Below, piece after piece: positions 15,121-59,800 of a stretch of 64,000 nucleotides of DNA. The notes beneath the pieces were generated by a model that searched no databases, was not told the DNA's origin, and was given only the letters and a program-made list of their open reading frames with translations. The DNA lies in NCBI RefSeq assembly GCF_030936135.1, contig NC_082617.1:1112001-1176000 (forward strand), written 5' to 3'. The DNA is from Gavia stellata (lineage: Eukaryota > Chordata > Aves > Gaviiformes > Gaviidae). The position numbers and the translations under genes are program-made. Position 1 is the stretch's first letter, and the number at the start of each line of letters is the position of its first letter.

Positions 15121-15201
15121 ATGACACGATGGACGCGGGCGGCGGCCCCCTCCTCCCCGACAGCGTCCTTTACGAGATCTTTCTCTACCTGGACCACGTA
15201 G
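15121..15201 (+). other. Overlapping out-of-frame upstream ORF at the FBXW5 start
   Basis: An ATG 8 nt before the FBXW5 initiator opens a 26-codon frame ending at TAG 15199-15201, inside the FBXW5 coding region. Its context (CAGAATGA) has an A at -3 but no G at +4. The FBXW5 ATG (ACGATGG) has an A at -3 and a G at +4. Translation of FBXW5 would need leaky scanning past the first ATG. Confidence 0.5.
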
Positions 15202-24200: not shown

Positions 24201-26386
24201 CCAGGCTGGATATTGCAGGAAATGGGCCCAGCCCAAGGATTCATTTAGGAGAAAAACCTTTCTGCAACCAGAGTGTCTCCTGGGCCAGCGCAGCTTCCTT
24301 GTGCTTCAGAGCACGCTGCAGACTGGGCTTGGCGTGAGGTGTGGCTGTACCAGCTGAGCTGGCAGTCAGGCGCTGGGCATTTCCCTCGCTGGGGGTGGAA
24401 TGTGCCAGCCTGTCACTTATAGGCAGTGTCCTGGCCAAAAGCACCACTTGTGAGAGCTTGAGAGAGCCTGGCAGGGACAGCAACCCTGTCCTGGTCCTCG
24501 GCAAGTGAGCCAGTTCTCCTTTCTTAGCAGCACTAAGGGAAGCCCCATCTTGAAGCCTGGGGACTTCCACGAGCCCCGCTGTCTGACGGCAGCAGCCTGC
24601 AGAACCGCCTGATTCTGCTTTCTGTCCCCAAGGGATTAAAAGGATCCTGCCCCATCAGATGACAACTGCTGGGCCAGTGCTTGGGGAGGAGAGGCGCTCA
24701 GATGAGTTCTTTGACTCACTGGATCACGTCATCGACATTCATGGGCACATCATCGGCATGGGCCTCTCCCCTGACCACAGGTGAGCGTGGCGGGGCGGCA
24801 GTGCTGGCTTCAGACGCTGCAGAGTGTGGGCGGCAGCTGCCTGGGGGCTTTGTGGGCTGAACAGGAGAAGAAATGACTGCAGTGGATGGAGCAGGGTGCC
24901 TGCATAGGCCGCTCTGCTCTTTCACATCCCATTTCTGTCCTAGTGCCGATGGCATGTGTACAGCCTGAGCTTCTCCCCGGATCTCGGCAGGAACGCTTTC
25001 TTCCCTCTGAGCTGCTGAGCCCGCTTCAGGGTAGGGTCAAGCAAGGAACCTTGTAACAGCAAAGGAACTGCCCACAGCAATGTGTCTTGTTCCCAAGGCA
25101 GATCAATATGCCATCATCCTTAAAGCTGGTTTTAATGGGATTAAAGGGGCTTGACCTAGCCCCAGGGCCCACCTTCCCAATTGTGGGGACCCTTTCCCTT
25201 CCAAACGGAGCAAGAAGGGGTTCAGCAATGTGTTTCTGTGTTTCAGCCTGGATTTTAGTGAGCAGAGCTGTAGGCTTCCTAAGGACCAGAGAAACTGCTC
25301 GGTCCCTGCCCTGCCTGACTGCACTGCGCATTTACAGCTGGGGCTCCGAGAGCTTTGTGTGCCGCAAGGTGCAAGGTAACCCCTCTGCTCACCTCCTCAA
25401 GGTACCTGTACGTGAACAGCCGTGCCTGGCCTCGGGACTGCGTCATCTCCGACCCGATGCAGCCGCCCCCCATCGCCGAGGAGATCGATCTGCACGTGTT
25501 CGACCTGAAGACAATGAAGGAGGTGAAAAGAGCCCTCCGCGCACATCGGGCCTACACACCCAATGAGGAGTGCTTCTTCATCTTCCTGGATGTCAGCAGG
25601 GACTTTGTAGCAAGGTGTGTGGCGATGGGCGTGGGCAGGATCCTGACCCCACGTCTGCGAGGGCCTCGGAGCCAGCGCTGCGGGACAGCTTGCGGAAGCA
25701 GAGCTGGTCCATGTGCTGGAAACTCGGGCACTGCTCACAACACACAGGAAACGGGAGGCTCGTAAAGAGCAGAGAGACTGAATCAGAGGGTGCTGATAAA
25801 GGCTGTCTGCCCTGGTCCCATTGTGAAATCAGTGCAGAAAGGGGAAATGTGGGGCTGTGGCATGTTTGGCAGTGGGTGGCAAATGCTCTTCTTGGGGGCT
25901 GCAGGCAGCAGGTGCTATGGGGTGAGCTGAAGGGGCTCTTCAAACAGCCCCTGGGGCCCAGAGGGAGCTGGCCTGCCCAGGTTGAAGCTCATGGGTGACG
26001 GGGCTGCAGATGGAGGCTGGGGCCTCTGGCCAGGCTGGGGCACCCTCTGCCTCCGTCTGTGCAGAAGGAAGGGGTTCGGGAGCGGCAGGTTATCGAGGCT
26101 GCTGGGGTGATGTCCTTACCGGTGTCTTGTCCACCGCAGCGGAGCAGAGGATCGCCATGGCTACATCTGGGACCGGCACTATAACATCTGCCTGGCCAAA
26201 CTGCAGCATGACAATGTGGTCAACTCGGTGGCGTTCAGCCCGGTGGAGCAGGAGCTGCTCCTGACAGCCAGCGACGATACCACCATCAAGGTGTGGCGCT
26301 CCCCTCGCGCGGTGCGCATCCAGCAGGCCAGGAAGCCCAGGCCCAGGAAGCTGCTCTTCTCCTGGCTCATGAACCAGAAAAGCTGA
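15129..26386 (+). CDS. FBXW5: F-box/WD repeat-containing protein 5 (FBXW5), 589 aa
   Basis: Substrate receptor for SCF and CUL4-DDB1 ubiquitin ligases; human FBXW5 targets include SASS6 and EPS8. Coding exons: 15129-15321, 17989-18146, 18799-18973, 19852-20000, 21340-21826, 24633-24780, 25402-25614, 26140-26386. All borders are GT/AG and phases join to an open 589-codon frame (human 566). The F-box is residues 5-52 (LLPDSVLYEIFLYL through DEFLWKELFYRYY). WD repeats begin around residue 95 (FASCSKDCTVKIWSN) and the last is near the C-terminus (LLLTASDDTTIKVWRSP). Exon 6 encodes a long acidic linker (DLGSDSEEEEAKPKQ) that differs from human and explains most of the extra length. Exon 8 has the conserved RALRAHRAYTPNEECFFI. 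A non-coding first exon lies upstream; the coding exon follows acceptor CTTTGCTTCCAG. An out-of-frame ATG precedes the start by 8 nt. Confidence 0.97.
15322..17988 (+). other. FBXW5 intron after the first coding exon
   Basis: A 2.7-kb intron. The first part is still CpG-rich; the rest is ordinary sequence. I see no conserved exon, RNA gene or mobile element in it. Confidence 0.5.
21827..24632 (+). other. FBXW5 intron between exons encoding residues 387 and 388
   Basis: A 2.8-kb intron, the largest in the gene. Open frames on both strands show no family motif. No repeat array or mobile element is recognised. Confidence 0.5.
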
Positions 26387-32015: not shown

Positions 32016-35000
32016 TTAGAGGCCCGTGAGATCAACGATGGCTTTAATAAAGATGGCATCATCACGCACGTAGGAGTTCTTGGCTTCCATCACGGAGACG
32101 GGGCAGAACAGCGGGCAGCCGCTGGCAATGTTCATTTCTGTGATGGGTCGCTGGAAGGAGGAGGACGTCACGTCAGGTCGGAAGGCATCGATGATGTGCT
32201 CCCGGTTGTTCTGGTCCAGGAGCATCAGGGTTACCTGTGGGGAAACGTGAAAATATACAAGAGCAGCTGAATAAAAAGCACATGGAAACCCAGCCCGGTG
32301 ACCCGCTCAACTGAAGCCTGTGGAACGTGCAAGTACCAATGCGACCATAGCCACATCACGTGCCTACAAATCTGAGAAACGCCTGTAAGTAGGGTCAGCA
32401 GAGAACGTCATCTCAGAGACATTCTGCAGAAACCTCCCCACATCCTGCCCTGCCACTGGAAACTTCTGTGTGGCAGCACAGGGCTGTCAGACTGACTCTG
32501 AAAACCTACAGCTGGCTGGTGTGGCATTTGCTCCCAACACCAATACCCCAACGCAGGTATTTCATTAAGTCACAGAGTTGCTGTCCCCTTGCGAAAGAAG
32601 GCGGCGCCTCTGCCTGCATCAGTATTTCACCCGCTCAGCCCTCAAGTGTTTCACAAATCTGCAACGTCTAGGAACGGTAATCTGAGCTTCTGATGCCGAA
32701 CGAGCATCAGCTGCACCCAAAGTACCAAGGCCACGATAACTTTCCCTCACCCCGAATTCATGCAGAGGCTCCCCTCACTTTCCAAACACGCTGCTGCAAT
32801 CCTGCCACAGCCTCCGCCGCTTTGTGCCCCCGCCCTGTAGCACACTCCGTACTTTCAGCATGACTGGGGAATCCCCAGGGCGGCTGACATACCGTAGTCT
32901 TTCCTTCTTCTGCTTGTGAACTAGCCCAGATCGATGGCGTCTGGTACTACTGGGTGCCAAAGCAGAGGCATGTCGCTGGGCATAGCGGCTTTGTCCTAAA
33001 CCCACCTTCTGGTTGAAGGGCCACCGCAGGAGTGCGTCGTTGGGTCCTTTCATCACCACAAAGAACAGGGACAGATGGGTCCCACGCCCGGTGCCGTCCC
33101 CGTTCAGGTAAACGCGCAGACACATCTTGTAGCCGTACTTGCTCGTGTAGAAAGCTATCAAAGAGTTGCAAAACAGACACAGTGAGTGTCAAACCCAGCA
33201 AAGCCTGGCACCAACAGGTTCCTCTGAACTCGGAGGACTCTATAAAGTTTGGATCCTGTAAGAAGCCAGGTCTGGGTCTTAAAATACCTGCACCATGGAG
33301 GTAAAAAGCCACCAGGTACAAACAACAGTCAGATGCCATCTTAGACTGGCCTGGAGACAGCCCAAGGTCAGGCAGTCACAAGCCCCTGGTCTAGCCAAGA
33401 CGCAGAGCACTGCGGCACAGAGCAGGGCACCGGCCGGCCCCTTGGGCTCTCCCCACCCACACCCCAGGCACAAGTGCCCCAGGCAGAGCCTGGAGCTGGA
33501 ACTCTGCCGGGGAGCTGGGCGCTTCCCACTGCACCCCCCGCAGACCCACCAGTTGTGCCGCGTGTGACTGCTAAAGGAGCTGCTGTTTGTGGCAATAACG
33601 CTGACGAGCAGGAACAAAACCACCCCCAAAAAAACCTGACAGGGGGTAGACCATCCTCAGTACTCACTGCACCCTCTTCATAAGCTGGCTGCCTCTGATG
33701 GGGGCAGAGGCTCAAGCAAGCGAGCTTCGGTCTCCCGTTAGGATCCCAGCCGCTCTGCATGGCATGGGCATGGCTGCGTATGGGCTCTAGGATCTCAGGC
33801 TCTCTTCTCTCAATTCTGGGAATGCTCATGTTGTGATATCAGACCCATGAAGGGCCACAGAAATACATCTTGGAAGGGGACATGCCGCAAACCGCCCTCT
33901 CACAGCGTCGCAGAGCTAAGTGCCTCGGGTCTGGCAAGGCTCAGCAGCCTCAGGGCACAGGGCAGGAGATTAGAGACTGTGTTTTACTGCAGGGCTTGGT
34001 GCACTTCTATGAACAGGCAGACTAGCCCTAGCAGAGATACCGTGCACTTCCACATGGTGAGAAGCAAGAGATCAGGGCTTTGTCACCCGTTTCCCTCCTG
34101 GCACTCCCCAATTCATTTCTTCTAGTCCTTCCTCTCCACCTGCTTCACCCAAAGGCTTTCAGGGCAGATGCCACCCTCTGCTAGTCCAAGCAGCACATCC
34201 TCACCACCCACCTGGGGCTTCTCAGCACTCCTGTAACCCTGTGGGTGTAAAACCAGGCGGGGAACTGGAGGAAGGATGGCCCCAGAGCGGTGGGAGTACC
34301 CAGGAAAAGGCACCAGGCAGCCAGAGGGCTAAACACCTTGCGGACCACGCCGCCAGCCCAGAGCAGCGAACTGGGCATCCTGCTTCCCACCAGCCCAAGC
34401 AAAGGCGAAGCACATCGGAAGCAAAGCAAGAGCCCAGCAAGCCACCCTCCAGCATCTGACAACCAGCAGCTTTCCAGCAGGAGCTTCGCTTTGGACTGTC
34501 CTGATTCACGCCCCCAATGAACCTTTCTTGTGCGGATTTGGTTTTGAACTCTTTCTGATTTTGCCCTTTGCAAAATCCTGTGGCAGTTGTCGTGTCCTCA
34601 CAACGTGAGTGAGTGGCAACTCTACTTCCTTCTCTTTAACACTGATTTCATTTGCTATTTCCTTGCCTTTACGTTTAAATACAAAACAAACTATTCTATT
34701 CATTTCCCTTTTTCATCCCATTTGCCACCAAGACCTCTCTCCTCCCAGCTGTCTCCTTCCCAAACTGAACAGCACTAGTCCATTTGCTTCACTTTCTAAG
34801 ATTAAAAAAACCCACCTCCACAAGAAACATTTGTTTCTCAGCCTAATTTTCTCAGCTAAAGCAGCACCAGGAATGAGGATCTCTCATCTAAGCAACACAA
34901 TCGACTACCGCAGAAAACAAGGCCTTGTACTTTGCACTTGCAAGATAAAAAAAAGAAGTCCTGCCTTTTCCAGAAGCAGTCCCGGTGTTAGGCAGAAGCA

Positions 35001-38000
35001 ATCCTCACCTTCCGATCCCCCCAGCCACATACAAGATTTTCATTAGCAGATGGCAGAGACCAACCAGCAACACAAAACACAGTCTGGTGGCCTGCAAAGT
35101 ATTTTTTCCTTTGATGAAACCAGTTTATAAAAGCCCTGAGCCCTGCCTTTCCTGCTCTCCCACCGCTGCCAGGTGAGCCGGGATGCCCGTGGCCAGAGGA
35201 CAAGAGTCAGCTCCGTGCAGCACCTCCCTCCAAACCGCAGCCTTTGGAGACGTTCGGGTCAAGCAGCTCTCGAGCACAGTGCAGGAGATGGACAGGATGC
35301 AAGATTTAAGGTCCTCTCTCTAAGTCAAACAAAATAGATTCGAAGCAGATTTGTTGGCTTTGGGAAAAGGAAGGAAGTGCTGCCCTTTCCGAAGGGGACA
35401 GAGAGCAGGGGTTTTCCACGGCTGCTGTTGACTTTTAAAAGGAAATGCTAACTGCACGCGCACAGTTTCAGTAGCGGTTTAGTTCCCCTCAAGAAGGGGA
35501 ATCCTTTTTTCTTTCAGTTTTTCAAGAGAAAAAGGACCCTGAACAGCCTTCATCCAGAAAACAGATTTTAAAAGAGTTTTTAAAATTCAATTGCTTTCAT
35601 CTTGTGGCCCAGCCACAGTCTGCTTTTTCACAGCGCCAGGAAGCAGACGTAAGGTACGCGCTCTAGGTTTGCATGCAGCTCTGGGCATTTTGAAAAAGCT
35701 CTCCAGCACGCTTAGATCTAAGTGATTCCTGCTCAGGCAAACACAAACTCCTCTCCGCAACCATTATGCTGCGTGGTGAGCTTCCCACTGAGCAATGAAA
35801 TTGTGTGAAGAGATGGTTTCATCTTGCAGCTGCAAGCCTGGGAAGTGCTTTCATAAGCAAACAAGCCAGATCACAACCTGCTGCTCACTGTCTCAGATTT
35901 TCTTTTCTTAAGAACAGGAGGAACAGTGCTGGGCTGGGGCAGTTCTGCGAGGAGAGCCCCTTCCTCTAACAGATATTCAAGCACTTCCCTAGGTATGGTT
36001 TGGGCTTTATTTAGACATTTTGTCTTGCACTGTCATGCTTTAGGCACTGAAATATACTTCTGGGGCTCTTAATATATATTTCCTCCCTTCCTTAACCATT
36101 TTCTTGCTGGTTTTATGGCCTCTGAGTATTTTAATTCTAACTAAAGGGTTATGCAGGGCTATTCTGGAGCTAAGAGGGTTGCATTCTCTATTATGAGAAA
36201 TTAAAAAAGTCTTCTGCAAGCAAAAAAGCACCTCTTTCAGCAGAGCAGTTTCATTTAGCCCAATGCTAAAAAAAATGTTCTGGGCTCCATGGGGAAAGGT
36301 GGACAGAAGTACATCTGAATGGCCAGCACATCCCCTGCTAAGGACACCGCTACAAATCCCACACCCAACTGAGACGCAAAAGGCTTTTGCAGTTTTGCAA
36401 ATTTGTGGGCAATAACCTGGAGAGAAGATCGCAGGAGAGCGGCCTGTTATTGCCTCCTGACGCTTCCTGGCAAATTCTGTTATCTTCCAGATGAAAACAC
36501 CATCGTAGGTGGAAGCTTCCATGTTGCGGATCTTTTCCTCCATCTCAGCCATGGCCAGATCTTTGAGCCCAATGCTCCTTTCCAGCTGCCGGACCTGCTC
36601 AGTGGGATACACGGTGCAGCCTGGTTAGAAACACGTACTGCTGTGAGACCCAAGAAAGCCAGCAGACACCAGCATCCCCTTCCGGACGACTCTTTAGTGA
36701 GAGACGTTCTCCAGAATTGACAGGGGCCACAGGACGGAGAAATTTAACATCGTAAGCCAATTGTCTGAAGCTTCCTTTTGAACCCTGTCATTATACATTG
36801 ATACGACTCAGGGCTTGAGCTGGAAACTTTCGCACAGCGAATGGAAAATTCTCCCAACGAGCAGCTCCATTACGTTACCAGCACAAGAAGTGAGGGGTGG
36901 GGGAACATGAGCATTGTGACAAAACTAGATTGAGAAAGAGAAGAACCTACACTCAGCCAACAAGGTCTCCAGAGGGTTAATCACTGCTAGCTAACATAGG
37001 GTCACACCAGTTTTGGCAGCTCGCTTGCGAAGAGAGCACAGGTACGCTGCAAACTGCACCTCTCCCAGCTGCCAAGACACACTGGCAGTGCTCAGCAGGG
37101 ACTGTGCTGGAGCATACTGGTGGGGGCAGCTCCTTCACACCTCCAGCCTGTGCTTGGCACAACGCTGTAGCATAGCATCAAGGATTACACTCCTTTGGAA
37201 AGATCTGGAAGGTGAGCAGCCCCACGCATTCAGAGAGAGCCAGTGAAACGCTGGGTGCTCTGCCTCTCGTTGGAAAACTTCACCTAGGAAGAACATCTCG
37301 GTGTCTGCGTAACTTGATTACTAACAGAGATCTGAACGCTTTATGCATGTCAGTTTAATTCCCATCTTTTCCAGGAAGCTTTTGAGGGTTGGGCACAGGC
37401 AGAAATGATATTTTAGTTCTGCCTTCAGATTTGTGGAGTTTCAGGGCTAGGCGGTGAAGCTTTGCTAGATAGTAACATGGAAAGGAAACTGAAAAAAGTC
37501 TCTGCTCACAGTGCTGGAAGGCCCGAGCCAGTGGTTACACACCTTGTTACTCAGCGTTTCAATTTTCTCCTGGTCTAGTCGATGTTGCCGACTGTAGGCT
37601 TCGGCTGTTAGAGACACTCTTTCCACCTCCCGATTGAGCACGCAGACAATGTTCTCAAAGGTCACCGTTTTCCTCTCAAGGGCCTCACATCTTCCCGAGA
37701 GCTCCGACTCCGAGCACAGAGAGTTTGCTGCCAGTAGTGGGGAGTTGTTTTGTGATGAGGAAAGGGCAGGAAGGGGCTTTAGGTCTCCGGACCCAGGCTT
37801 GAGGCTGAGCACAAAACTCAGCAGCATATAGAGATGCTCTGCCAAACACTTGCTTTCGTGTTCTGGTAGCTTTTCATTTTCCACCTACATGAAGAGAAAT
37901 ACATCCCCCATTCAGCAAGCTCAATCTACGCTGTCACCATCCACAGAACAAATTCCTCCTCTTGAGGTCACAACGTTAGCTTTAAATTATAAATGGGAAA

Positions 38001-41000
38001 AATGAAAGAAAGACAGTTAAAAAAAAAGTTTTGGGGCAGGGGTGGGTTGTTTTGTTTTAGAAATGCTGCAAATCACATACAATGACGGATGCCTAACGTT
38101 TCCCCAGCTGTACACGCTGTTCTACGCTGTCTTCCTCCATTACTTCCCAAAAGGGCTTAACAGCACCAAAGGACAAAGCCTCATATAATCCCCTCGAGAA
38201 GGGATTTATATGAACCTCACCAGCAGGAGCTGGGAAAACTAAGTCACATGGAGAAATATGGCCCGGCCCCAGTTCTGTGCTTACAGCTGAAAACAGCATA
38301 ACCACCAGAGTCTCAAAGCACTCAGGGTGTTCCCCAAGAAGGAGGAGGTTTCCTTCCACATTAAGTTCATTCTCTGGATACCCAAACTCTGGACAGCAGA
38401 TGATGTTAAGGTCCATTTGCAAAGGGTTTGAAACACCACTTTGTTCAAATAGCCGAATGCAAACATCTGTAACAGTTTGGGCGACAGCAGTTTGCAAGTC
38501 AACTCTAACACTGGAACTGAAAACAAGTCCCAAGATAAACATCAACAGATGAGCCCTTACCACCTCAGCACATCCAACAACCTCAAATCTGCAAGGCACT
38601 TTAGATCTGCCACAAGTCTTCACATGGTCCCGAAACTAGAAAGGAAGGAAGGCAATGTTAGATCTTATGTGTCCCCAGTAGCTCCCTTTCCATCTCGCTG
38701 ACGTCTAGGAAACCGAAGATGATCTCAAGAATGCTGAAGCCATCGCTAATCACTAGCTGCCAAAGTGCGTGGTTAAAACTGGACGCTGCCTACCATTAGG
38801 TATGACTTTCACTGTAATATAAACATAGCACTGAGACCTGGAAGGAAGTTTTATTTCTCTGTCTCTTGATGGTTAGGATGTGTCACTTCTCACCTGCCTA
38901 TGCAAGAAAGAAAAAGCAACCAGCACAGGTACGTGTTATGGATGCTGAGCAACAAGCTTCACTGAGGGCGGAGGAAGAGGAGGAATGGGGAACAATGCTA
39001 CGAAACAGATAGCCATTAATTTTGTGCACTTCATGTAACCCTGATCAGGACGTGCCACAGCATGGTATTTTTACTTCCAGCTAAGCATTATAAATCTGAG
39101 AACAAAAAGCTTCCCGGTGGTCCTGCCTATTTATAGCAATTACTGCAGGTCCACCTGCGCAAGGGAAGATGCTCTGCTGGGTCGAGTATCACCTCGCTGG
39201 GGTGCTGAAGGATGCTGCGCCTCGGCCACCTCTCATCTGGCAGCTGCCGTGAAGAACCGAGGCCAACAGTGGATATTTCGACAGAGGAACGCCACTAACC
39301 CCCCAGCCGCCAAGATGACTCGTTTGGGTTCCCACACAGTGCATGATTAATGCTAACAAGCACTGGCACATTATCATCTTGTTTTTGATATACCTCTCAT
39401 CAGAACAGACCACTGATACCTGATGAACAACAACCATATTCCCCATTTAACACCTACATCTGCTACAACAGATGTCGATTAAAACGGGTTTTAAACCACT
39501 TTTTTAAAAACTTCTAGATCCATCTGGCTTGCTTAATGAGTCAGGTTACTCAGAGTTACAACGGCTGCAGCTAATCAACAAAAGTTTGGAAAGCGATAAA
39601 AGAGGGAGTTAATATTTAAACAAAGGATAGATCACCTATGGGAATCCTACAAGCCTACTCTCTGCCGGGCTCCAGCTTCAACCTGCGGACAAGCAGATCT
39701 GTATCCCAAGATCCCAGCGTGAAGTCCTTCATTACGCTGCCTGTTTAGAAGAACTCTTTGCTCATCTTTTTGATGCTTCTGTCCCCACTGCCCTGCTACA
39801 AGGGCCTTTTGCAGCAGTCCTGCTAAAGATATTTGCCCGTAGCAGGCAAGACGGTTTCAGATGAACATGCTTTTTGAAGAGGTTTCCCAAAACTTTGATT
39901 TTCAGACGTCTGAGCCTTGCCCCAGGAGCCAGCAGCATGGAAACCCTATAGACACGGATTCCATTACGTGATTAATTAGAAATAAATTAATTTTGCTGGA
40001 GATAGGCTCCCTTTCCATAATTGCAACAGTCGTTGGTATAGTTGCTTTACATAGGACCTAAGTACCCTTTTAAGCCCACGAGCGTGCTTTTCCCATGGAG
40101 GCTCTGCACCCAAACACAGCAAACACACCGCTCAGAGGGAGGCAGCATCGGCAGCACTAACGCAAAACTACAAGCGCTGATGAGTCACGTTCACTCGCAC
40201 CCGACCAGTATTTTGAGCTTTATGGAAAGGTCATGTCTGTACTAACGGCTGCCACTTAATTATTCTCCCCAGTCCACTTTCTAATAGTCTCGATTTTCCT
40301 CCCTGCTCTGAGAACGCCGGTGTCAGCCCATCAGGATGCCAAACACCACCATGGCACGCGGTTCACCGACAGTTGGATGGTTACCTTCTCCCTTGGAATC
40401 TTCTTCCCACAGCCTTCGCAAGTCAGCGGAAATTCAGGGCAGACTTCGTCGTGAGCCTGTCATGAGAATCGACAGGAGAATATTTGGTGGTCTAAATAAA
40501 AGCTCCAGTGAGGTTATATGATGAGTACAATTCAACCGGGGTAGTTTTACACTTTATTACAGAAGAGCGCTGTATTCTACCAACCTAAACTCAAATCTTG
40601 GTCACACTGATCATTCTGTCTGCTGACTCATTTGTGTGATCGCCAGGCTACCAGAATTTTAGGTGCCTATGTAGCCTCAGCCTCAATTTAAAAGCTGCTA
40701 TAATAATTTTTTTAAAAAATCAAATTACTGCTTTGATGGACAAGATAATCAACAGGAAGCTCCATTTATGGGTCTGCCAGGAAAATACACATTGGCACAG
40801 GTTGAGTGAAGTAAGCCACTATCTCAGCAACGTAATTTGTATAATTTTTCCACTGTAATGATTATCAGTTAGCTGAAGTATGAACCCATAGGCTACTTAT
40901 CACACACTGGGCTGAGCTCTCTGATAGTATTCTTCACATTTGAATCACAAAAACCCATTTTTCAACCAGAAAGAAAAATATTTTAAAACTGTTTCATTTA

Positions 41001-44000
41001 ATAGCCCCTGCACACAAGCACCCACCGCTGCAGCAAGAGCACATACAGCCTGTTTGGTGGCCGGCGGAGCTGAACAAATGATCAGGGCAACGTGATACTC
41101 TGTCCTCAGCAGATACTAGGGCCAACCACACCGGCTAAATTGGGAATGCTACAACGTGCCTCTGCTTTCTGTGTTATTTCCACACTGTTTAAACCTTCTC
41201 TTTACACACCAACCAGTTGAAACAAGGTATTGTAAATGCTATGAATAGGCAGTTCAAAATTCAGATTAAAAGGTAAGTGCATTGCAGTATCCTGCCATGG
41301 TAGTAACAGGAAAAAAACCACAGAAGCATTTATAAAGTTGTCATCTGAAACCAGATGCTTTGAAAACTTGGTCACATTTATTCTTTATTAAAACAGGTTA
41401 CTATCTTGGGGTGGGGGAGGAGGAAACATGCACAAACTTAAATACTGTTACCACATCAGAAACTGGAAAGTGAAACGCATTAGTGGCTCAGCTTTGGCTT
41501 CTTAGTTACTCTCTCCTTTTTATACTTTAAAGGAGTAATCAGACTCAAAGCCTCGCTGCACTGTCCCCTGAAAAGTGACCGGCCAGCCTGTGCGGTTCGG
41601 CTGGGCAGCGCTGCCTGCAGAGGCGGTGGAGGAGGCAGAGCGCTGTCCTTCATCCCACTCACTCGGAGGGGCTGAACCCTTTCTTCTACCCACCTACTGC
41701 TCTCATGTTCTAGAAACACCAGATAGAATCTTCCCCACGACCCACAGAACGCTGGCATAAGAACAGACGGTCTGGCTGAAGGAAGGAAACTTCACTGTAG
41801 AGACAACTATTTAAAAAGGGAGTATTTAAAACTTATGTTCTCCCTTGCCAACGTGCTAGGCGTGAAACTACCACCCCCTCTGCACTCCCCACCTCCCAGC
41901 ATTTATCTTCCATCCCAACTCCACGCTACACCACGCTACAACACCCAACATGCAGGCAGCCCTGCGAAGCGTGCCCAGCCTGCGGCACGAGAAGGGAAAC
42001 CAGCCCTGCACAGCTAAGCTGAAAGTGCAACTGGTCCGTATGTAAATTGAGACACCCAGAAACACTGCCTTTAACCAGCACAGATCCAAACCTCTAGACG
42101 AACATTTTTGTATAAACAGTTTCAGGCTCTTCTGGAATGCCCTGTTCCATCCCCCTCTACGCGGGTGTCTCAACAGAGACGGATGGTATCGCCGCTGGAA
42201 GAAATCCACCCCACCCAGGAGCCGAAGAGCAGGGGTTGGCATTCCAGCCTGATCTGCGGCACTCCACTCCCCCAGGAATGGGGCAATCCTCCTGTTTACA
42301 CCTTTCCCAAACCCACATCTGTGAGCTTCTGCAGCGAGGACGAGCATCTCGGACTCGGGCATTTGCTGTGAACATTTTAGGCAGCTTTGGAAAGCCATCC
42401 CTGTGAACAGGGCTAGGTGAGAGCAGTCAACCTCTCGTGGGAATCAAGTCAGATGGGGGTTGGAGAGAAGGGACGGCAACAGAAGAATTAAAGCGGAGCT
42501 GGAAGACAACGGTCTGGCTCAGACCTTCAGGGCTACTCTGGTTACCTCAGCGTTGACTTCTCACCCACCAGCTGTAAACTGAGGCATAGACCAGTCTTCA
42601 CATCCAACAACAGGGGTAGGAAAATCAGACCGGGCCGAGTTAACAGCCTGCACAGCCACACCTCGCTCTTCCCACTCAATTAAAACCAAAACCGCCGATT
42701 GATACGCACATCAATTTCGCTCCCTAAAAACAAACAGCGAGACAACCCAGCGGCAGCCTGTACGTCACGCGCCGCCATCATAACAGGCGATTCTCTGGGA
42801 GCCCACCTGGGAAACTAGGAAAATCGAACACCATCACCAGCTTCGGAACAACCAGGGCAGCCTACGAGCACTTGCTCAGGGCACAGGCGCTCACAGGTTA
42901 CTGCTGCAGCCGCTCAGCCCTCCAGCTCCTACCGTGCTCCTCTCCGGAGTAGTGCCAACGGGCTGCACCGGAGGTGTTGAGCCCTCTTCGCCTGTACGCC
43001 TGCGGTGAATGGAGATGCCTGTGCGCACACCGTGACTCTCCTACCTCAGTATCAGGAAAGGAGAAAAGTGATTTGCAATATTTGCAGTTAAGGTTTCTCT
43101 CGGGGCACTCCCGGGACCACCCCCTTACACCCCTAGCACTCAACCAGCGGGAACGGGCAGTTCCCTTCATGGCAGCTCTGCGACAGCAATGGCAGCACAT
43201 TTCAGCGCAACCGTGCAGAAAAGTGCAGGCAAGCCTAGGGAAAAAGTGGGATTTAATAACAGCAGCTGATCCCTGGAGGATGCAATGATCGTTTCCTAAA
43301 GTACACCAGGGTGAGCTGCTCTGCTGTGCCTGCGTAAGTAAGACAAAAGGGAAAACTGCAGTTTAATCCGATTGCCATTTCGCCTCTCAAGGCTTTGCTA
43401 AACTTGACTCGAACTATGGAAGAGGCTACTGCTGAAAATTATTATCCCCGTATCGTGAGGCAGAGCAGGAGGTGCGCCCGCTCCCCAGCTGCCCTGCTCA
43501 TAACCTGCCGTATCAACGCAAGCCCGTTTTTATGGAGGTCTTGCCACCGCGTTGGGAAATCCATCAGCGTGAACGCAACGCTCCCCCTCCAGCTAAAAGG
43601 CAAGGCAGGCGGCTGAGAAAAGCACCCTTTGAAACAGCTGCTGCAAGATGCCTCTGCCAGAGCCCTGCAGAAAGGTTATCGCAAAGGGCAGGGTCGGCAG
43701 AGAGACGAGGCTCAGCAGAACAGGCTTGGTGCGAGCTGCGCACCGCAGCTCTTCCACAAACACAGGTTGATCTTTGAAAGTTAGTCCGTTAGTCCCCTCC
43801 GAGCACAGCAACAGCAACCATAAGCATAGACAAAGCTGAAGGGCTTGGCAGCAGGAAGGGAGCACTGAAAAGGAAGGAAAATTAACAGGACGGCAGAGGA
43901 AAGCCAGCTGAAGTGGCACAGGGCGCACCGGAGTGCTGTCAGGGCTTTGGCAGTCTCCAGCCCCAGCATTGCCGTGTCCAGCACACGGCTCCTTCGGAAT

Positions 44001-47000
44001 CTTAGCCTGGCTACAAGTAAAAAGGGTGGGCCCACAGAATTATGGAGAAAACCCTGAAAATGGGTCTCCAGTGTAAAAGAGATGCCTGCCTACGTTTTGA
44101 GAGAACCTGAATCCTTTGCGCCAAGAAGCATGAGTTGCTTCTTGCACCTCTGCCAGGTCCTCAGGGGCTCCGGAGCCTCCAAGAGGGGAACATGCCACAA
44201 AACACAGGTACTTTGGGATGTCCTGCTCCTCCGAAGTCAACGTGCCCGTCTGTGCTGTGTCTCCTCCTCGTCAGGGGAGTCCTAAGGCTGGTTTTAAGCC
44301 AGGCCTGCTCGAAGCTTTGCACACACAGGTGGGCTGGGAACACGCACACGGTCCTTGCGTTACTGCGTGGAGCCCAGCAACACAAGGCTGGAAAGCAGGA
44401 ACCCAGTCTGTAATTCACAGGGCCAGCTGGGAACAGGAGCTTTCTGAGACCGTCGCATCAGCTGGTGCCAGACACAAACTGCTCCCTTTGCTGGGACACG
44501 CTGGGGACGGAGATCCAAGCGAGTCCACTTGGCATCACAAGTAATTAAACCTCAAAGAAAGTGTCAAAAACAAAGATTAAGTTCCCATCAGTAACTGCTT
44601 GCGGCTTTAGTGGGCATGCGTATGGCAGCGATGGCAGGGGGAACCAGCACTGCCTTTACTCTGCTGTCCAACGCCACGGCACCTGAGTTGAGGACAAAAA
44701 TTGGCAGAAAAGATGTCAGGGGTTCCCAGGGGCCCAGAGGCTCACGCCTCTTTTCAGATCCAGCAGAACAACTTTTGCTTTCAGTTTTCTACAGTTTTGC
44801 TCATCAGCTTTTAGGGCTGATTAGACAGACATTTGATTTGGGGTTTATTGGTGGAGGGACATCAAGGCAGCGCTTCTTGCATTGAATAAGGATGTGGAAG
44901 CAGTAGTAGGTTTTGAAGAAGGATGAAGGTACAAGAAACAGTTGAAAGCAGCAGCAGGTTTTCTAACATTTCCTAAAACAGACTCTGCCTTTCCCTGTTT
45001 GCTTTGAACTATGTGAACTGTGAGACACTCCAGGAAGCGTTCTCCTAATACCTCCATCATCCCAGAGCAACGATTTTCCTAGGCAGACTCTACTCTGAAA
45101 CAGAACAGGGCCAGACCCCCAAAGCATTTTAGAAAAGTCTGAGTCTGAACCTGACCTGGCCCCATGGCCAGCTGAAGCCCGTGCACCACTGTCCCTCACC
45201 TCAGATGCGGCTAGCTCCATTGCAAAACAAAAAGACTAAATCCACTTGCCAAGGAAATTACAAATTACAGCAATGGACTACACCAAGTCTCCGTAAACAG
45301 CTGGCTGACATGTAAGGGAGGTTCAAAGCAATCGGGAATATCTGATCAGAGATAACTTCACAGGTCTTCTAGGCTACAATTAACAGTTACAGTCACGGTC
45401 GCATGAAAAATGCCCAAGATGTGCTGTTCACATCTAATGAGGTCACTGCTTGAGAACAACCTGTCCCCGGGAGCAAACACCAATTATACCATCATGCCAA
45501 CAATGCCAGGCGCTGGCACGTTCGTAGCATTCATCCGAATTCACCTCCAATAGTTCTTTCTGACAGCCAACCTCTGTCATTAGCCGCAGGAGGTGCTGCA
45601 GTGCTGACAGCTGTGCTCTAAGCACACTGAAAGCACTGCCTGTGCCGACCAGGTCCCAGGTCCCCCTGGAGAGATCTCCCTCCCTTCCAGCAGCACCTTC
45701 ACCAGTACGAAGCTTCACCTTAATCGCTCAGATCAAAAGGGACAGCCTCAGGCTGAAGCCTCTCAGTGGTCTGCCTGACCTTCACGTTAGAAAGGGTGGT
45801 GTTGATACCGGCCAAGCTCTGTGAGCCACAGATGGCAGGGGCAAGGTCGACTCCTTTGCCTCGCAGCCAGCGCAGAGATGCAGGCTGTGAACAGAAGGGC
45901 TATTATAGCGTGAGACTGAGAACACCACTGGCACCCAGAAAAGGGGAGATGAGACAAATATTACAACTAGGACGGGTGTCTTTCACGTGCTGGAGAAGTC
46001 AAGCCTGTGGTGAGTGGCTTGATTTCAAACCCGATTTCTCCAGCCTGTCCAAAGAGTTGGAAGTGCCCAAGGGGGTGTGTGTAATTGTGGCTTTGGCTCC
46101 TGCCAGACACCTGGAGCCCCAGGAACACCTCCCTGGGCGTGAAGTGCTGCCCCACAACTCCCAAAGCTGTATTCATGCTGAGGGGTTTCATCACGGCTTA
46201 GAAGGGACACACAGCACTCACCTCAGCTTCAAAGCTCGCGACTTACAGCTTTTCATTTTCCAAGGTGCAGATGCCAAAACTGTTAATCAGGTGGGCCACC
46301 ACAAGAAGGCTGAGCTGGTTTTAGAAGCTAAGAGCAGACCCTCTACAGCTGGGGCTTTCCAACCCCCTCCCACGTGCGTTCTCCAGCACTCCCTGTGGCT
46401 TACCTCCCACCACGGGCTTGGACGGGAAACTGCCTCGTGTCTGGGCAGCCAGCTACATAAACTCTACTTTGGGGACTGTAAGGGAGGCCGGGTTTTGTTT
46501 GGGGACCTCAGCTCCAGCTCTGGAAAGTAAAAGTGTGTCAGATCCCTTTTTCCAAAGCAGGAGGTCCTTTTGGTCACCCGCACATGCAAGTCAGGGATCC
46601 TCCCACAAGAAAGTGATCTGGTCTCCTGGGGCAAACTGCTGATCAGGCCGGAGCTGGATGCAAACCGCGCTTTGACGCCATACCCTAACTTGGAGCCAAA
46701 ACCTTCGGAAAAAGACAATAAATGCAGTACCTGATTTTAAAAGGAAGGCTGGTCGCCCTGCTACAGCATCATCAAGTGTGCTTGCCACAGCATTTAAAAT
46801 GCTGTATCCCATGCAGGCAACACTGCTATAAAACACTCAGAAATACACTTTGGAGACAACAGGAGCCAGGTGAAGTAGCTTCAAAGACCAGCAGCTCTGT
46901 TCTAAGCAATGTGCAAAAGCCTGAAGCTGAAGTTTTCAGCCTAAGCTGAAAATCACCGCCAAAAACTATCGGGACATTCCTGGGATGCAGCTGGAAAGGT

Positions 47001-50000
47001 GGGGCAATGAAATGGTAAAGCATCACAAAGCAGGAGGACCCCCTGGCTCAGGGCCCCCAGCAGCATTTTTGAAGAGGGACGGTTTTCTCTACACCAGGTG
47101 CAGCACGGCTTCTCCAGCATCCTCCAGCAGGAACACTGGGCAAGAAAAGACTGCCCAGTTACCTTGTCCTCCTGGTCCCAGGAAGCCACGTAGTCCAGAA
47201 GGGGCTGCAGACATACTCTCCAACACCACAGGCTTTGGAGTAACATCACTTAAATTCCGAGTTTTGCATCTCCCACAGCCTTCCAGGCTTCAATTAAAGT
47301 GAACTCTTCAAAACCATGGTGACAACTGACTACAAGGAAAACACATCCCCTAATTTGGATGAGGATAGGTTATTATCACAGGTGACAGTCACCCATCCTC
47401 TTTAGCTGAGCTCATCTGTTTTCTTAGCAAAGCTCCCCCACCCCAACGTAGTTTAAATACTGCTGTCAGGATTAAGCTTAAAACTTAGTTCTCCTTCCAA
47501 AACTTAGACAATTCCATTTCCTTATGTCTCAAATAATTCTGTGTCTCCTGAGATGAATGGGCCATAATTAAAACCTCTGTCTGAGGTAACAAATGGAAAT
47601 GCCAAGGCTGACCATGCGAACACCCCTCTGCAGCTCCCTCCTCCCATCCCAATCCTGATGGGGAGCAAAGAAAGGGAGCTGGTGGTATGAAAAGCATAAA
47701 TAAAAGGTGTATGAGAACTGAAGATCTGTTGATAAAACAGAAGAGAGACGTAGGCAACCGGAGGTACCGCAAGGCAAGAAAAGAAATGCTCCAGCGCTGC
47801 GGAACCACAAACTCCCTCTACCTGGATATCACAGGACGTGTTTTCTTGGTCTTTCCTTTTGCTCTAACGGGCTAGTTTTAGTTTCTGCAACCCTCCTCAG
47901 AATTTCCACCTGAATCTAAAGGCTCCTGCCCACAGCCTGCTTTTCTGTATGTACGTTCAGGCAGACTCATCAGGAAACCCATACATGAAAAGAGGTTACT
48001 GATTAAAAGGAAAAACCCTGCAGCCCCACCACAAACTGCTTTATCCAAATGCCGCTAAATATTTACAATATTTACAAAGTCTGAAAAATGCATTTATAAA
48101 CCCAGACATGAGCTAAGCACTTAAACATTTCATATGCTTCACACAGCTTTAAGCAGAAGTGCAAGTCACGTTCAAGGAGATTGCACTCTTTCAGTTTTGC
48201 ATGTCCCTTTGAGACCTGAACAGAAAGCAAAACTGAAAACAGTTTTATTAATTTTTGTGAAGTTGAAGACCTAGAGCTTTTCAGCTGCAGAACATTTTTT
48301 TCCCTTGTTCCCGCCCTGATAAGATTAGCAAACCAGAAGTGACAGTATCTCTTGATTTGTAAGTGGATAGCAGCCGAGTAAGTCTCTCTCAGTACGAACA
48401 CACGATTTTTAAATTAGCAAACAATGAATTCACTCTTAGGGACTTTCCATGTCCTGCCGGAAATAGCGCAGCAAGGGACTTTCCATAGTGGGAGCGCTGA
48501 GCTGCAGCAGGACGTTAACGTTACACACATTGCTGGCTACAGATGCAACCGTACTGCACGAGGCAAACTCTACTTTGTGGCACTAAACTAACAAGCCTAC
48601 CCATAAGGCAAGGTTTAATATTAGCCCACGGTACCAAGAGAGACTCTGGGCTAACACTGTCGTTTGACACCTCCTTTCATCAGCCCTCCTCAGCCACACA
48701 TACCATCTCCTAAGCTCCGACTGCACAAGGACAGCCAGGCCTGATTAAATGCCACAGCTCTTTGGCAGGCAGCTGGGAGGAGAGATAACACAAGCCAGAC
48801 CTTGCCTCCTCCCACCAGTTCCCAGGAAAGAATCGGCTTTTCCCAAGAGGGCACGGAATAACCTTACCCCCATTAGACTAAATGCCACCGGTGGCAGGCA
48901 GGAGAGGCAAGCTCAATCCCAAGACAAATCAGCTAGCACTGCTCAAAATCCCCGCTCCCCTTTCATCGCACAAGACTGCCCCAAGACTGAAAAAACCACG
49001 ACAGCCAAGATCAGGGCTGCAGACCTACACCCCAAGCACTCCGGAGCTGCACCTCTACGAAACACACCCTGTTTTAGCAAAGGACCTTATGAAGATTAGG
49101 TGGAGAGCAAAGAAGAGGCACAGCCTTATCAGTTCAGACGCTCTCAAGCAGTTGTGCGTAAGATCCCAGAGCATCACACACACATGCAGCCTTCAAGAAG
49201 ACAAGACTTATCCCAGGACAGCTCGTTGCCCTTTTGAACTTCTAGTGCAAGTCCTGGCTGGACTCAAGCCTGCATTGAAACACTTGTAAGACCACACAGG
49301 GAGGACCTTTGGCAGGCGATGATTTTTGCTGAGCGCTGCAGGAACTCTGTAAGATTTTTTTTAAACCAGGAGAAAAAGTTCAGAAGAGCTCATCAGTCAA
49401 TAGCACTGGAAGCTGCTGACAAATACAATTTGATTTAGTCTAACGGAGATGAGCTCACTTACTACAATCACTTACTTGAACACTGCAGTGGGCATCGGAC
49501 TTCTAGTCACTGGTCACCAGCAGAAATTAAAGTATGGGTCAAACAATCTGCAGGCACCAACAGCACAGCTTGAACCTGGAACCTCAGCAAAACACACTGT
49601 ACCCTGAAAGGCAACTCCCAACTCTCTCTGCTGCATCAGTGTGAAGCTTTTAACTTGACATTTATTCAGCCATACATCCACACCATGAGCCACTTACAGG
49701 TCTGTGAATGCGGGTTCCACAGCAGGAGAACCATTTAGCACCCTACGTCCCCATGTCTTTTGGAATGAACTTTTAGCATAAAGAAGTGGAAGGTTCTAGA
49801 CAGCAGGACAAGGAAGCAGAGGCGCAGAAGCTTCTCTCTGTTAACAGGCTCAGCAAGCGAGGCAGAAAACTCAGGCATGGTCCACAGCTGTTGTTTCTTC
49901 CTGCCATCTTGCAGTGGCATTGCAAAGACAATCCAAATGTTCGCCTAGACAGACCGAGGTTAAACCTTTTCCTGACACACAGCTCAGTCACTACCAAAGC

Positions 50001-52242
50001 TCCATGAACCACAGGGCTACAATCTTACCTAGGGTAAGTGTTAGAGGGAAATAAAATTTATTCCTCCTATCTCAAGCCCCCCACATGGTGGTTCTTCCAT
50101 TCCAAGAGGGATGACAGAACTGTCCTTCAGGAGCATCAAAGCTCCACAGGTGAATACGCATTCACTGCCAATGCATTTTAATGATGCAAACTGTCACAGC
50201 AGAGCTGACTTGTTGGAAAGCACAGGGAAGCCTGTGGTCCACTGCCATCCTCAGGCAAGAACACGTTTCTCATGATGCACGTTAGCCATATACATGCTAA
50301 GGACCAGGGCCACAAAAAGAAGGCCTGGATTAAAGAGCTGATGGGCTCCTCAAGAAGAGTAGGATGGAGGAACCATCCTGCCCAGGAGGCTCGTGGCCCA
50401 GAACAGCTTGGAGCGACGGACGGCCAGCCAGTGAGCAACGCCCAGTCCCACTGCCCGGGTAGCTATGGGGGCAGCTGGCTGGAAACAGGATCGTGGCCAG
50501 GCCGCTTTCCCCAAGTTCATGGGTCTGAAGTAGGTTTTAGGTTCACAAAACGCAGAGAACTTCACAACAATTTCATGGCACAGCATAGTTTCTTGACAGT
50601 TCACTTGTCTTTTATAGCAGAAAGGAGTTGGAGATAGAGACGGTGGTTCCCACCATGGAAGGAACGTATTTAGTGCCTGTGATCACAAGCAAACCTGCAA
50701 TGTTTCAGTTGAGCCTGTGCCCTCAGCAGGGCACACAAACCTAGCTCAGTCACAAAATCGCTCCGGCTTACAGTGAAGTCTGGGAAGCTGACAGCTCCCA
50801 CCACCACTGCCAGTGCCAGCGGACAAGCAAAACCACCTGAGCCTTCCACAAACACAGAGGAAAGAAAAAGGAGGCAGGCATTGAAAGCCTTGCTTTGATC
50901 TTTACCTCGTATTCTTTAATAGTCCCCTTCCAAGTGCAGCCACTGTTAATACAGACAGCAGGCAGACTTTCCACCTCCCGACGAGCTGCGTTGTCTGGGA
51001 AAGCCTGAAATGGAAAAAACAAGCAAACCACAAAAATTACTGAGGGGTTGCAGTTTTGGTCGGGTCTCTTAATTCTTTATTAAGATTTTACTAAGACTCC
51101 TCCCAGGCCAGTTGCCACATCACATCCTCAGAGGTGTGCTAATGGCAAACAAATCATTATTACAGCCTTTAAGTAGGCCACCGCTATATTAACATGACCC
51201 GGATTTTAGAAGCTGGGGAGTCCACCACATTAATCATAACTCTCACTACTGAAGAAAACGTTTCCTAGGAATAAGGGATTCTCAGAACGTGTGTTTTAAA
51301 CAAAAACTGCACGTGGTATTAATGACATCAGTGAGCTGCTTTATTTTTTAAAATGCATTTTTACTTACCGAGCTTGTTTCCAAAATAGAAATGCCTTCTT
51401 CATATATTCCTTCCTGAATACAGCTGGCACACTTTTGAGGTCCAGCACTGGCAGACAGAAAAATAATCATCAAACACAACAAAAAGAAACCGATTTATGA
51501 TTTAACGATAAAACAATTTCCGGTAACTTTATAAAATTACAGCATTTTCTTATTTTTAAAACAACACATTGAGCCTTTGCTCATAAGTATTTCTGACGCC
51601 CATTTCTGATTGTAATTTTTTATTCTTCTCTTGATTAACCGCTCTATTCAACTTCCCTCACTTAAAGGCAAGAGTGAGACAGAACACTACGAAACTTGTC
51701 CGGAAGCCAGCACGTGCTTCAATTTCTCACATTTTGGCACGACAACCATACGATGACTTTTAGGAGCAATTCCTTCAGTAGCTGCGAGGCAGACTGAAGG
51801 AGATGGGTGCTCCACCTGGATCGCCACCTGAACAGCAAAAACGATCCGGGAGATTCTGGAAAAGGGAACTTTGAAGCAACCCCCAGAACAATAAAAGCAA
51901 GTCAGAGATTACACGTTCCCTTAAAGAAGGCCTGATGCTGAACCTCAGCGATTAAACACAGCTCCCTCACTGAGAAGGCCCTGAAAATGAGACTTTTTTA
52001 CTTTAAAATGTCTTTTCAAGCATTTTGTCTTCAGACTGAAGGCACAAAAGTTACCTTATAATTTTCTTCAGACAATAGGAACAGTAGCGATGTCCGCACT
52101 GAGCTTGAAACGGCCTCCTCAAGATATTCTTGCAATCGGAGCAGAGGTATTTGACCTCCAGTTTAGTTCCCAGGATCTCCTTTGCAAATCCAGGCTGGTT
52201 TAGATCCAAAGAGCCAGGTGGAGTAGAGTTTGCTGCTGCCAT
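32016..52242 (-). CDS. TRAF2: TNF receptor-associated factor 2 (TRAF2), with a disrupted zinc-finger exon
   Basis: Cytoplasmic adaptor and RING-type ligase downstream of TNFR family receptors; recruits cIAPs and activates NF-kB/JNK. Coding exons: 52055-52242, 51369-51447, 50906-51004, 43045-43177, 40385-40456, 38561-38635, 37543-37884, 36417-36594, 33006-33154, 32016-32234. All except 43045-43177 join in one frame: 466 aa without it (human 501 aa complete). RING: YLCSDC, then CGHRYCSYC, then KCASC. TRAF zinc fingers follow, for example [14 protein letters not shown] and [14 protein letters not shown]. The coiled coil is in 37543-37884 ([14 protein letters not shown]). The TRAF-C domain is almost identical to human ([29 protein letters not shown], end [13 protein letters not shown]). 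The ATG lies 33 nt into exon 2; exon 1 is non-coding. Exon 43045-43177 contains an in-frame TAG and lacks 29 nt versus the human exon. A 24-residue Ser/Leu-rich stretch before the coiled coil is absent from human. Confidence 0.95.
33155..36416 (-). other. TRAF2 intron within the TRAF-C domain
   Basis: A 3.3-kb intron interrupting the TRAF-C domain, AT-richer than the flanks. I see no additional exon, RNA gene or recognisable mobile element. The donor is GTTATT, weaker than the others in this gene. Confidence 0.5.
40457..43044 (-). other. TRAF2 intron between zinc-finger exons
   Basis: A 2.6-kb AT-richer intron. I looked for an intact second copy of the first zinc-finger exon and found none. 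No repeat or mobile element is recognised. Confidence 0.45.
43045..43177 (-). other. TRAF2: TRAF2 exon for first TRAF-type zinc finger: stop codon and 29-nt shortfall
   Basis: The acceptor TTGCTGTCGCAG is good and the donor is GAG|GTAGGA. The exon begins [14 protein letters not shown], matching human SCHEGRCPLMLTEC. The next codon is TAG where human has Pro, then GCKGVV follows where human has ACKGLV. The end, [20 protein letters not shown], matches human CPERSLSCRHC but sits in a different frame. Human has 54 codons (162 nt); here there are 133 nt, so 29 nt are missing between the two matching parts. Both flanking introns are phase 0. Skipping the exon, or using the internal AG at 43108-43109 (leaving 63 nt), would keep the frame. 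Confidence 0.85.
43178..50905 (-). other. Large TRAF2 intron upstream of the disrupted exon
   Basis: A 7.7-kb intron, the largest in the window. I found no sequence resembling an alternative first zinc-finger exon, no tRNA or snoRNA signature, and no family-level mobile element. The open frames are short and lack motifs. Confidence 0.45.
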
Positions 52243-56802: not shown

Positions 56803-59800
56803 ATGGCGGAGAGCGACTGGGACACGGTCACGGTGCTGCGCAAGAAGGGCCCTAGCGCGGCCCAGGCCAAGTCCAAGCAGGTCAGTGGGTGACTGACGGC
56901 GACGAGCGGCGCAGCGGCTGGGGCCTGGCGCGGCCGAGGCCCGGGCGAGCTCAGCGGCCGAGGCCCGGGCGAGCTCAGCGGCCGAGGCCCGGGCGAGCTC
57001 AGCGGCCGAGGCCCGGGCGAGCTCAGCGGCCGAGGCCCGGGCGAGCTCAGCGGCCGAGGCCCGGGCGAGCTCTGCGGCCGAGGCCCGGGCGAGCTCAGCG
57101 GCCGAGGCCCGGGCGAGCTCTGCGGCCGAGGCCCGGGCGAACCTGCAGCCAGGCCCCGGCGGGTGCTGACGGGGCGACTCTGACTAGCGGAGCGCTCACG
57201 TCGGCCCCTTTACTTTCCACAGGCGATCCTGGCGGCCCAGCGGCGCGGAGAGGACGTGGAGACCTCCAAGAAGTGTGGGTATCCCGCAGCTTGGCTCCCC
57301 AGTCAGCCTGCGTCGGTGCGGGGGGGGGGTAGGCCCAGGGAGGCCGACCCGGTGGGCGCCGTTCCCCGGCAGCGGTGCGGTGCGTGGGCCCCCCAGCCCC
57401 GCGTCGGGCCTGCCCCAGCGAGTCGCCCTTGGAGGCGGTTGCCTCGAAGAGGGTAGGCAGCACCCCGCGGCTGAGGCAAAGGCTGTCCTAGCTGGGGCTG
57501 CATGGAGCTGAGAGGCGCCGGGCACCCCGGGGAGGGTGGGCAGCAGCCCCCGGGGATGTGGGGAGCGCTCCCCTATAGCCAGCTTCAGGTTGCTGGTTGC
57601 CCAGAGCTGATCTCTGGCCAGCACCTGGTGCCAGAGCGACCGTAAATAAAAACGTCAACAAGAACCTTAGTGTTCCTGAGGCTGTGCAGCGCTCGCAAGG
57701 GCCTTCATGATCCCAAAGCTTCAACTCCCAAGTTTTGCAGCCCGTTGCTCTTGTTGGTAACATATGTGCGAGGTTTTCAACGGCTGCTTATCTGCCTGGG
57801 GCGTTGCTCTTTAAAAGTTCCCCGGCTCCTGTCCGATGCAGCTTCTCTCACGTAAGGACGAGCTTATGATTGTTGGAAGTAAGGAAAGAGATGATCCTTG
57901 AACGAGGCTTAGTCAGCTTTTGTCAAGAGGCCGATCGTCACAGACTAACGTGAGAGAAAGGATTCAAACTATGACTTGAGTACTGCAACTAACATGAGAC
58001 TAAACAGTAAACAGCATGAGTTTGAAGCTGAGACTTTCAGCAAAGCCCAGCAGAGTTAGAGTTTACTCATAAAAGGCATCAGAAAACAGATTAAAAGCCA
58101 CTTATTCACGCTGCTTCATACCCAAGCAAGCAAGGTGCAAGTTCAAATATTAACAGGCACCCCCCCACACCCGCCGCTGTAGCACAAATGTGTGTGTCTG
58201 AAGTGAAGTTTGAATCTTAAATCCCCGAGCGAGAGCAAGATGTTGCCTATCTGGAGTGAAGTTCAGATGTAAAGGAAGGAGAGGGGAGGGCTCTGCACGG
58301 CTGTGTTTAGACATCAGTGTTAATGGGATTAAGCCAACACGTTCGCGGACCTGCTGCGGGCAGGATCGGGTTGAGATGGGTGCTGACACTGGCACGTTGA
58401 TGTCTTGAAAGCTGCCTGGGATCTTGCGCAGCTGAGCAAAAGCGCTCCGAGACTTTTTGGCGCAGCTCTCAGCCTCGTTCTGTTTGTCCTGGGTTTTTCT
58501 GCTGTTGTTGCTTTGAATGACAGGGGCAGCAGGCCAAAACAAACAACACTTTATTACAAAGAACACGGCCAAGCTCGACCGAGAAACAGAAGAGCTGCAC
58601 CACGACCGAGTTCCGCTGGAGGTGGGCAAAGTGATCCAGCAGGGCCGACAGAGCAAGGGCATGACACAGAAGGACTTGGCCACGGTGAGTATTGCCTGGG
58701 GCCCGCTGGCCTCTGCTCCTGCTCCCCTGAGGCGGGTTGAGGCACCTCGAGGCGAAGGTGGATGCTTTTCCTGTCCCCTCGCGGGCAGCTGCGGCGGGAT
58801 GGTGTCAGGAGCAGCAGGTTTGGTGAAGGCGACTTCTCTGAAGGCTGATCTCCAGGCAGTGTTAGTTATCTAGGAAACCTTGTAGGGCCTTGTCTGCGCA
58901 GCCCTCGAATGCCTGCCTGGAGAGGGAGCGTTGCTGCGGCTGGTGAGCTGGTAGGAGGCTTTTCTCCCGCCCTCCTCCCATCAACTCGGCACCGACGTGA
59001 GGCTTTTTGTACCATCTGGGCCTGACGCGGCGTTCAGAAGCTCGCTGCTGTCTTAAGGAACAGCAACGCGTAGTGTTACTGCTCCTCCTGGGAGGCCGAG
59101 GGAGGTAGAAGCCTGTCCAGGATGGGCATCGCCATCGCTGCGACGCTCCCATAGCGTAGGGAGGCAACCGTGGTGACGGAATGAGCCTGGAAGTAGCACT
59201 TTGTCTTCCGATCCTGGCATAATTAGAGGCTGTTAGGTATCTGTGTGAGTACTGGGGGGGTCAGTGCTGAGTGTTTGCGTGTGGGGCCGGTGTTTGAGAC
59301 ACCTCCTCTCTTTGTAGAAAATCAATGAAAAACCGCAAGTTATTGCTGACTACGAATCGGGAAGAGCGATCCCCAATAACCAGGTTATGGGCAAGATCGA
59401 AAGAGCCATTGGTAAGTTCAGGAAGGAGATTTCAGAAATAACAACGTTTTCAGTGCCGAGGAGGGATGTTTTGGTTTATGTTACTTTATGTTACATTACG
59501 TTATGTTTTCCACCTCGGGATCAGCGGCTGGCTGTAGGTTGTTGTGGGTGCGGTGTCATTAAGCCGTGTTTCGATAAAACCTGGATCCGCTGACTGAAAC
59601 CAGAGCTCGGAGCTCTCGTTCTACTTTCTTCTTCATCTTCGTGCTTGGGGCCATGCCCTGGGGACCGCCCCTGGATGCTTCCCCCCCTCCCCAAATCAGT
59701 GAGATGCCACGACCCGCGAGGGCCTGAGTATACTTGGGAAAGTATCTTGCAGCCACTAGTGTTGATGTTACTCTCCTCGGCCAGTTCAGGTACCGTTTTC

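Follow-up and report, generated by a model that had tools for sequence, protein, structure and literature searches.

How might a bird live with a TRAF2 gene in which one exon cannot be read through? The window analysed here, 64,000 nt of Gavia stellata contig NC_082617.1 free of any N, holds a TRAF2 gene whose exon 5 has both an in-frame stop codon and a net shortfall of 29 nt (Table 1). We propose, with a probability of about 0.55, that exon 5 is disrupted in an otherwise whole, apparently single-copy TRAF2, either fixed or as an allele, and that the lesion is bypassed by skipping the exon. If every form of real lesion is admitted, the claim that the damage belongs to the genome is somewhat safer. 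Weighing a real lesion that is bypassed against an error confined to this stretch, we lean to the lesion.

Table 1. Features of the TRAF2 gene and of its broken exon (positions in the window)
Feature	Positions	Strand	Remarks
TRAF2 coding region	32016..52242	-	ten coding exons, numbered e2-e11 (non-coding first exon left out)
Exon 2	52055..52242	-	start codon, RING start
Exon 4	50906..51004	-	opening half of ZF1 (CINSGC...); 3' border in phase 0
Exon 5	43045..43177	-	133 nt, broken two-finger cassette, splice sites kept
In-frame TAG	43133..43135	-	codon 137 if exon 5 is included; Pro of ECPAC in human TRAF2
Site of net 29-nt shortfall	43110..43115	-	exact breakpoint ambiguous; need not be one event
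Exon 6	40385..40456	-	closing half of ZF3 (AHDEVC), then the start of ZF4; 5' border in phase 0
Exon 11	32016..32234	-	end of TRAF-C, stop

The gene and its neighbours

The nine coding exons other than exon 5 are all open and join to 1401 nt, a frame of 466 aa, and all nine introns run from GT to AG. RING, TRAF fingers, cIAP-binding coiled coil and TRAF-C lie in one frame, as expected of a TRAF2 orthologue. In the 466-aa product that skipping exon 5 would give, Pfam finds zf-C3HC4, TRAF2_zf, zf-TRAF, TRAF_BIRC3_bd and MATH, and human TRAF2 (3knv) is the best PDB match for the RING exon as well as for the piece made by exons 4 and 5. The gene is flanked by FBXW5 (15129-26380, plus strand) and EDF1 (from 56803, plus strand). 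EDF1 is an expected neighbour of TRAF2. FBXW5 is a conserved neighbour of TRAF2 according to PMC10179116, which also puts TRAF1 and TRAF2 on one chromosome in chicken; the placement of TRAF1 (contig C24) and fbxw5 here agrees with both. It is in the count of fingers that the gene departs from its orthologues: five are drawn for human TRAF2 (a figure legend of PMC9406534), and here, with exon 5 broken, the skip product has three Cys/His finger motifs.

Smaller differences are found in other exons. Exon 8 (37543-37884) has about 20 residues absent from the human protein, exon 6 reads GKKIPREK where human TRAF2 reads GKKKIPREK, one residue longer, and the weakest donor of the gene, CAG/gttatt of exon 9 (36417-36594), scores 4.49 as compared with 6.7-9.8 at the other eight (working matrix). 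Elsewhere in the window, minus-strand frames at the right end (62589-64000) look by eye like a MAM-domain gene, which we take, from human gene order, to be MAMDC4. A minus-strand frame at 5276-5845, with TGRWYSIGLASNSNWFKEKK, is lipocalin-like by eye. The avian CR1-tail pattern, sought as a mark of bird origin, has 0 matches in the window. There is a tandem array at 12476-13067 (88-nt unit, 6.7 copies, the 176-nt period matching better), and the first intron of EDF1 contains a 24-nt tandem repeat (56930-57161, 9.8 copies, 96% match).

Two lesions in one exon

The human TRAF2 protein used as the tblastn probe, like the mouse one, was a working version and not a database record. With the human probe the two ends of exon 5 match TRAF2 in two frames, the first 63 nt (43177-43115) in one and the sequence from 43110 onwards in the other. 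The pair is found with E of about 3e-8 when the whole protein is the query and 4e-9 when the exon is used alone, in which case the second-ranked site within the window has E of 0.002. It is too much to ascribe this match to chance, because such E values belong to two collinear pieces lying between exons 4 and 6. The mouse probe matched the first piece at E of 1e-7 and left the second unmatched.

The block beginning with CPER is preceded by 70 nt (43177-43108) rather than 99, and the whole exon falls 29 nt short of the expected 162, where both expectations come from the human probe protein with human exon edges assumed from the window's own. A preliminary description of this DNA had reported the two frames, the stop in place of the proline, the 29-nt shortfall, the intactness of every other TRAF2 exon and an in-frame 466-aa product left by phase-0 flanks when exon 5 is skipped. 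All of this stands. As causes it had offered a lineage-specific isoform, an allele or an assembly error. Its naming of the exon after the first TRAF zinc finger was imprecise: by motif, on a putative assignment of ligands, the exon is a two-finger cassette, in which the closing His and Cys of ZF1 are followed by ZF2 and by the CxxC that opens ZF3. The description had also offered an alternative acceptor at 43107. The site is in frame, as it needs to be, but its pyrimidine tract is poor (0.375 of 16 bases), which makes its use as a cryptic acceptor unlikely.

The acceptor (cag/AGC) and the donor (GAG/gtagga) are both canonical. The donor scores 7.41, higher than three of the eight other TRAF2 donors, and in introns 4-5 only 16 of 694 GTs score as high, this donor counted among them (working matrix). 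The Cys and His zinc ligands outside the gap are retained, as judged by eye on a putative assignment of ligands. Given these retained residues and uneroded splice sites, the view of exon 5 as a long-dead exon is unsupported. Identity to the human protein is 14/22 before the gap, with the stop counted as a mismatch, and 9/22 after it; the figures are 29/33 for exon 4, 21/25 aligned columns for exon 6 and 16/25 for exon 7. Outside its lesions, exon 5 stands at or below its neighbours in identity, in a set too small, and against a human sequence too distant, to prove relaxed selection.

A fault in the assembly or in the genome

One may suppose instead that the exon is intact in the animal and that this stretch was mis-called or partly dropped in the assembly or its consensus. 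We hold this to be unlikely, but not so unlikely that it can be passed over quickly. A local fault might well look like this, with the stop and the gap confined to some 30 G-rich bases, and the remainder of the exon is still coding-like, with the ligands and splice sites that an intact exon would have. Earlier assemblies of four animals, two of them birds, one a mammal and one a fish, are known to contain spurious frameshifts, absent exons and premature stops, and about 26 to 60% of their genes, depending on the species, suffered some false loss (PMC9516821). The same source counts premature stops among the rarest types of false loss. Against an error, GC around the lesion is unremarkable at 0.65, a value reached by 31% of 60-nt windows, no G-quadruplex motif starts within 42900-43400 on either strand, and no tandem repeat is reported at the site. 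Dropout caused by GC or by a quadruplex was rejected on these grounds, as was slippage in a tandem repeat.

Then there is the nature of the changes. The codon in question specifies Pro in human and mouse TRAF2, and to reach TAG from any Pro codon takes at least two base changes. The residue beside the stop has gone from Ala to Gly, and FLL of the mouse protein is FPL here. If the codon was Pro, a two-base change to a stop, together with changes in its neighbours, is more like an accumulation of changes than one slip in base calling.

The sequence around the exon speaks against the assembly as the culprit as well. The five exons of EDF1 join to 148 aa. FBXW5 is covered over residues 1-565 of its probe by eight tblastn blocks, left unjoined, which show one stop symbol only, in the overhang ahead of the IWSNEL of the third block. 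The tally of open pieces is 14 exons, from EDF1 and from TRAF2 without exon 5, plus eight blocks of FBXW5. Contigs of chromosome size and the absence of any N from the window likewise favour a real lesion. Poor quality of the assembly in general is disfavoured, because these neighbours are open and so are the corresponding cassettes of TRAF2's paralogues, taken up next.

Other copies and the TRAF paralogues

A broken exon would matter little if an intact one, or a second TRAF2, supplied the missing fingers from elsewhere. We regard this as very improbable. The bird's own genome (1,320,717,556 bases in 1185 contigs, among them C24 of 13.9 Mb and C1 of 133 Mb) was searched with the DNA of exon 5 and its flanks and with the DNA of exon 8, and each found one match, itself. 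The human exon 5 protein matched five places. The broken exon was one, at E of 0.02, a value that an intact TRAF2 exon 5 should far outscore. Another was an exon on C7 belonging to TRAF6, as identified by Pfam and PDB. A third, on C25, has a zf-TRAF match, and we take it to be TRAF4. The last two, on C26 and C1, were at chance level. The protein of exon 4 matched three places: itself, a site beside the TRAF6 exon on C7, and C24:11.03-11.05 Mb, where the gene is, over the coiled coil, a better match to human TRAF1 than the window's TRAF2. No match thus supports a second copy, in a protein search that was not exhaustive for distant copies, because the TRAF1 cassette was unlisted there and found later. 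On the evidence of the own-genome searches, the assembly is unlikely to contain a duplicate, or an intact version, at another place. A duplicate or mutually exclusive exon 5 was ruled out in the same way, by blastn and tblastn in the window and by the own-genome searches. For comparison, bird TRAF2 as a contaminant in viral and genome collections gave 0 confirmed cases in each.

The paralogues show what an undamaged cassette looks like in this genome. Open, in phase and set between AG and GT, it measures 162 nt in TRAF1, 162 nt in TRAF4 and 159 nt in TRAF6, the three that were compared (TRAF3 and TRAF5 were left out). In the TRAF1 of this genome one exon is RING-like, KYLCSNCNNILKKALQTLCGHRYCSACL, and the finger cassette, EHQSLC...SSSEYQ, is open over 54 aa (L014:2580-2768 and L013:5161-5322; C24 at about 11.04-11.05 Mb). 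Human TRAF1 is not known to have the finger cassette. It is without a RING too (PMC3697994). Outside mammals, a TRAF1 with a RING has a published precedent in catfish (PMC10179116). One might go further and suppose that a three-finger TRAF2 is fixed as the sole form in this lineage, that the TRAF1 cassette supplies the missing fingers in mixed trimers, and that the roles of the paralogues are partly swapped relative to mammals. We consider that extension rather improbable.

How the lesion may be bypassed

We return to the preferred reading, a lesion present in the animal, fixed or as an allele, and bypassed. Both borders of exon 5 are in phase 0 and lie, by eye, ten residues past the second Cys of their respective fingers. 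Because the exon is such a phase-0 module, TRAF2 could survive the lesion: skipping would yield a protein of 466 aa in which RING, coiled coil and TRAF-C are whole and three fingers stand in place of five. These three would be a hybrid, ZF4 and ZF5. In the hybrid, one half comes from ZF1 and the other from ZF3, giving x4-C-x11-H-x3-C, and the x11-H-x3-C spacing is shared with ZF4 of the window and with human ZF3. Judged by motif, it fits the TRAF-type zinc finger C-x2/4-C-x11/12-H-x3/4-C, and with such normal spacing it may fold. Skipping could be tolerated because the hybrid finger keeps this TRAF-like spacing, an argument from spacing and not from fold.

A transcript that includes exon 5 would meet a different fate. 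Its reading would end at codon 137, with six further exon junctions downstream. A stop ahead of downstream exon junctions is a standard substrate of nonsense-mediated decay, and decay would be expected. This invites the idea of a poison exon, included at a regulated rate so that part of the mRNA goes to decay and the dose of TRAF2 is tuned. The splice scores of exon 5 lie within the range of the other TRAF2 exons, as that idea would have it, and the early stop with its junctions beyond is what a poison exon needs; but kept splice sites are equally expected of a recent lesion, and they fit a young lesion or a poison exon alike. We judge regulated inclusion to be improbable.

Comparison with known systems

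The titles and abstract openings of the papers found in the open-licence literature mention no bird TRAF2 whose cassette exon is broken or skipped. Vertebrate TRAF2 genes are given 10 exons and that of chicken 11 in PMC10179116, a count with the exons unnamed, which gives no hint of a bird-wide loss of exon 5. If the lesion is real, here is a vertebrate living with a TRAF2 minus two of its five fingers, a natural test of what those fingers contribute to NF-kB and JNK signalling; it would also illustrate how a symmetric exon can buffer a gene when a lesion strikes it. Should it prove to be an error, an assembly whose contigs reach chromosome size has a fault at the level of single bases here. 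It would then join the false gene losses, in which a frameshift, a stop or an absent exon is likewise confined to a single assembly (PMC9516821).

Other TRAF proteins with altered N-terminal halves are known. Human TRAF1 is likewise a TRAF in which that half is reduced (PMC3697994), but there it is the RING that is lost, whereas TRAF2 here keeps its RING and loses two fingers. The splice variant TRAF2A, with an extended RING, is a naturally altered N-terminal half of TRAF2 itself; it differs in that residues are added to the RING, while here fingers are removed (a title cited in PMC3577368). Shorter splice forms of TRAF3 are known in human and duck. One of them, duck duTRAF3-S, is missing aa 217-319 and with them some of the zinc-finger region; it alters signalling and interferes with full-length TRAF3 (PMC5863512). 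It loses parts of the coiled coil as well, and it exists beside a full-length form, which TRAF2 as assembled here cannot encode. TRAF3 splice forms such as duTRAF3-S are the nearest parallel to the loss of exon 5 from TRAF2.
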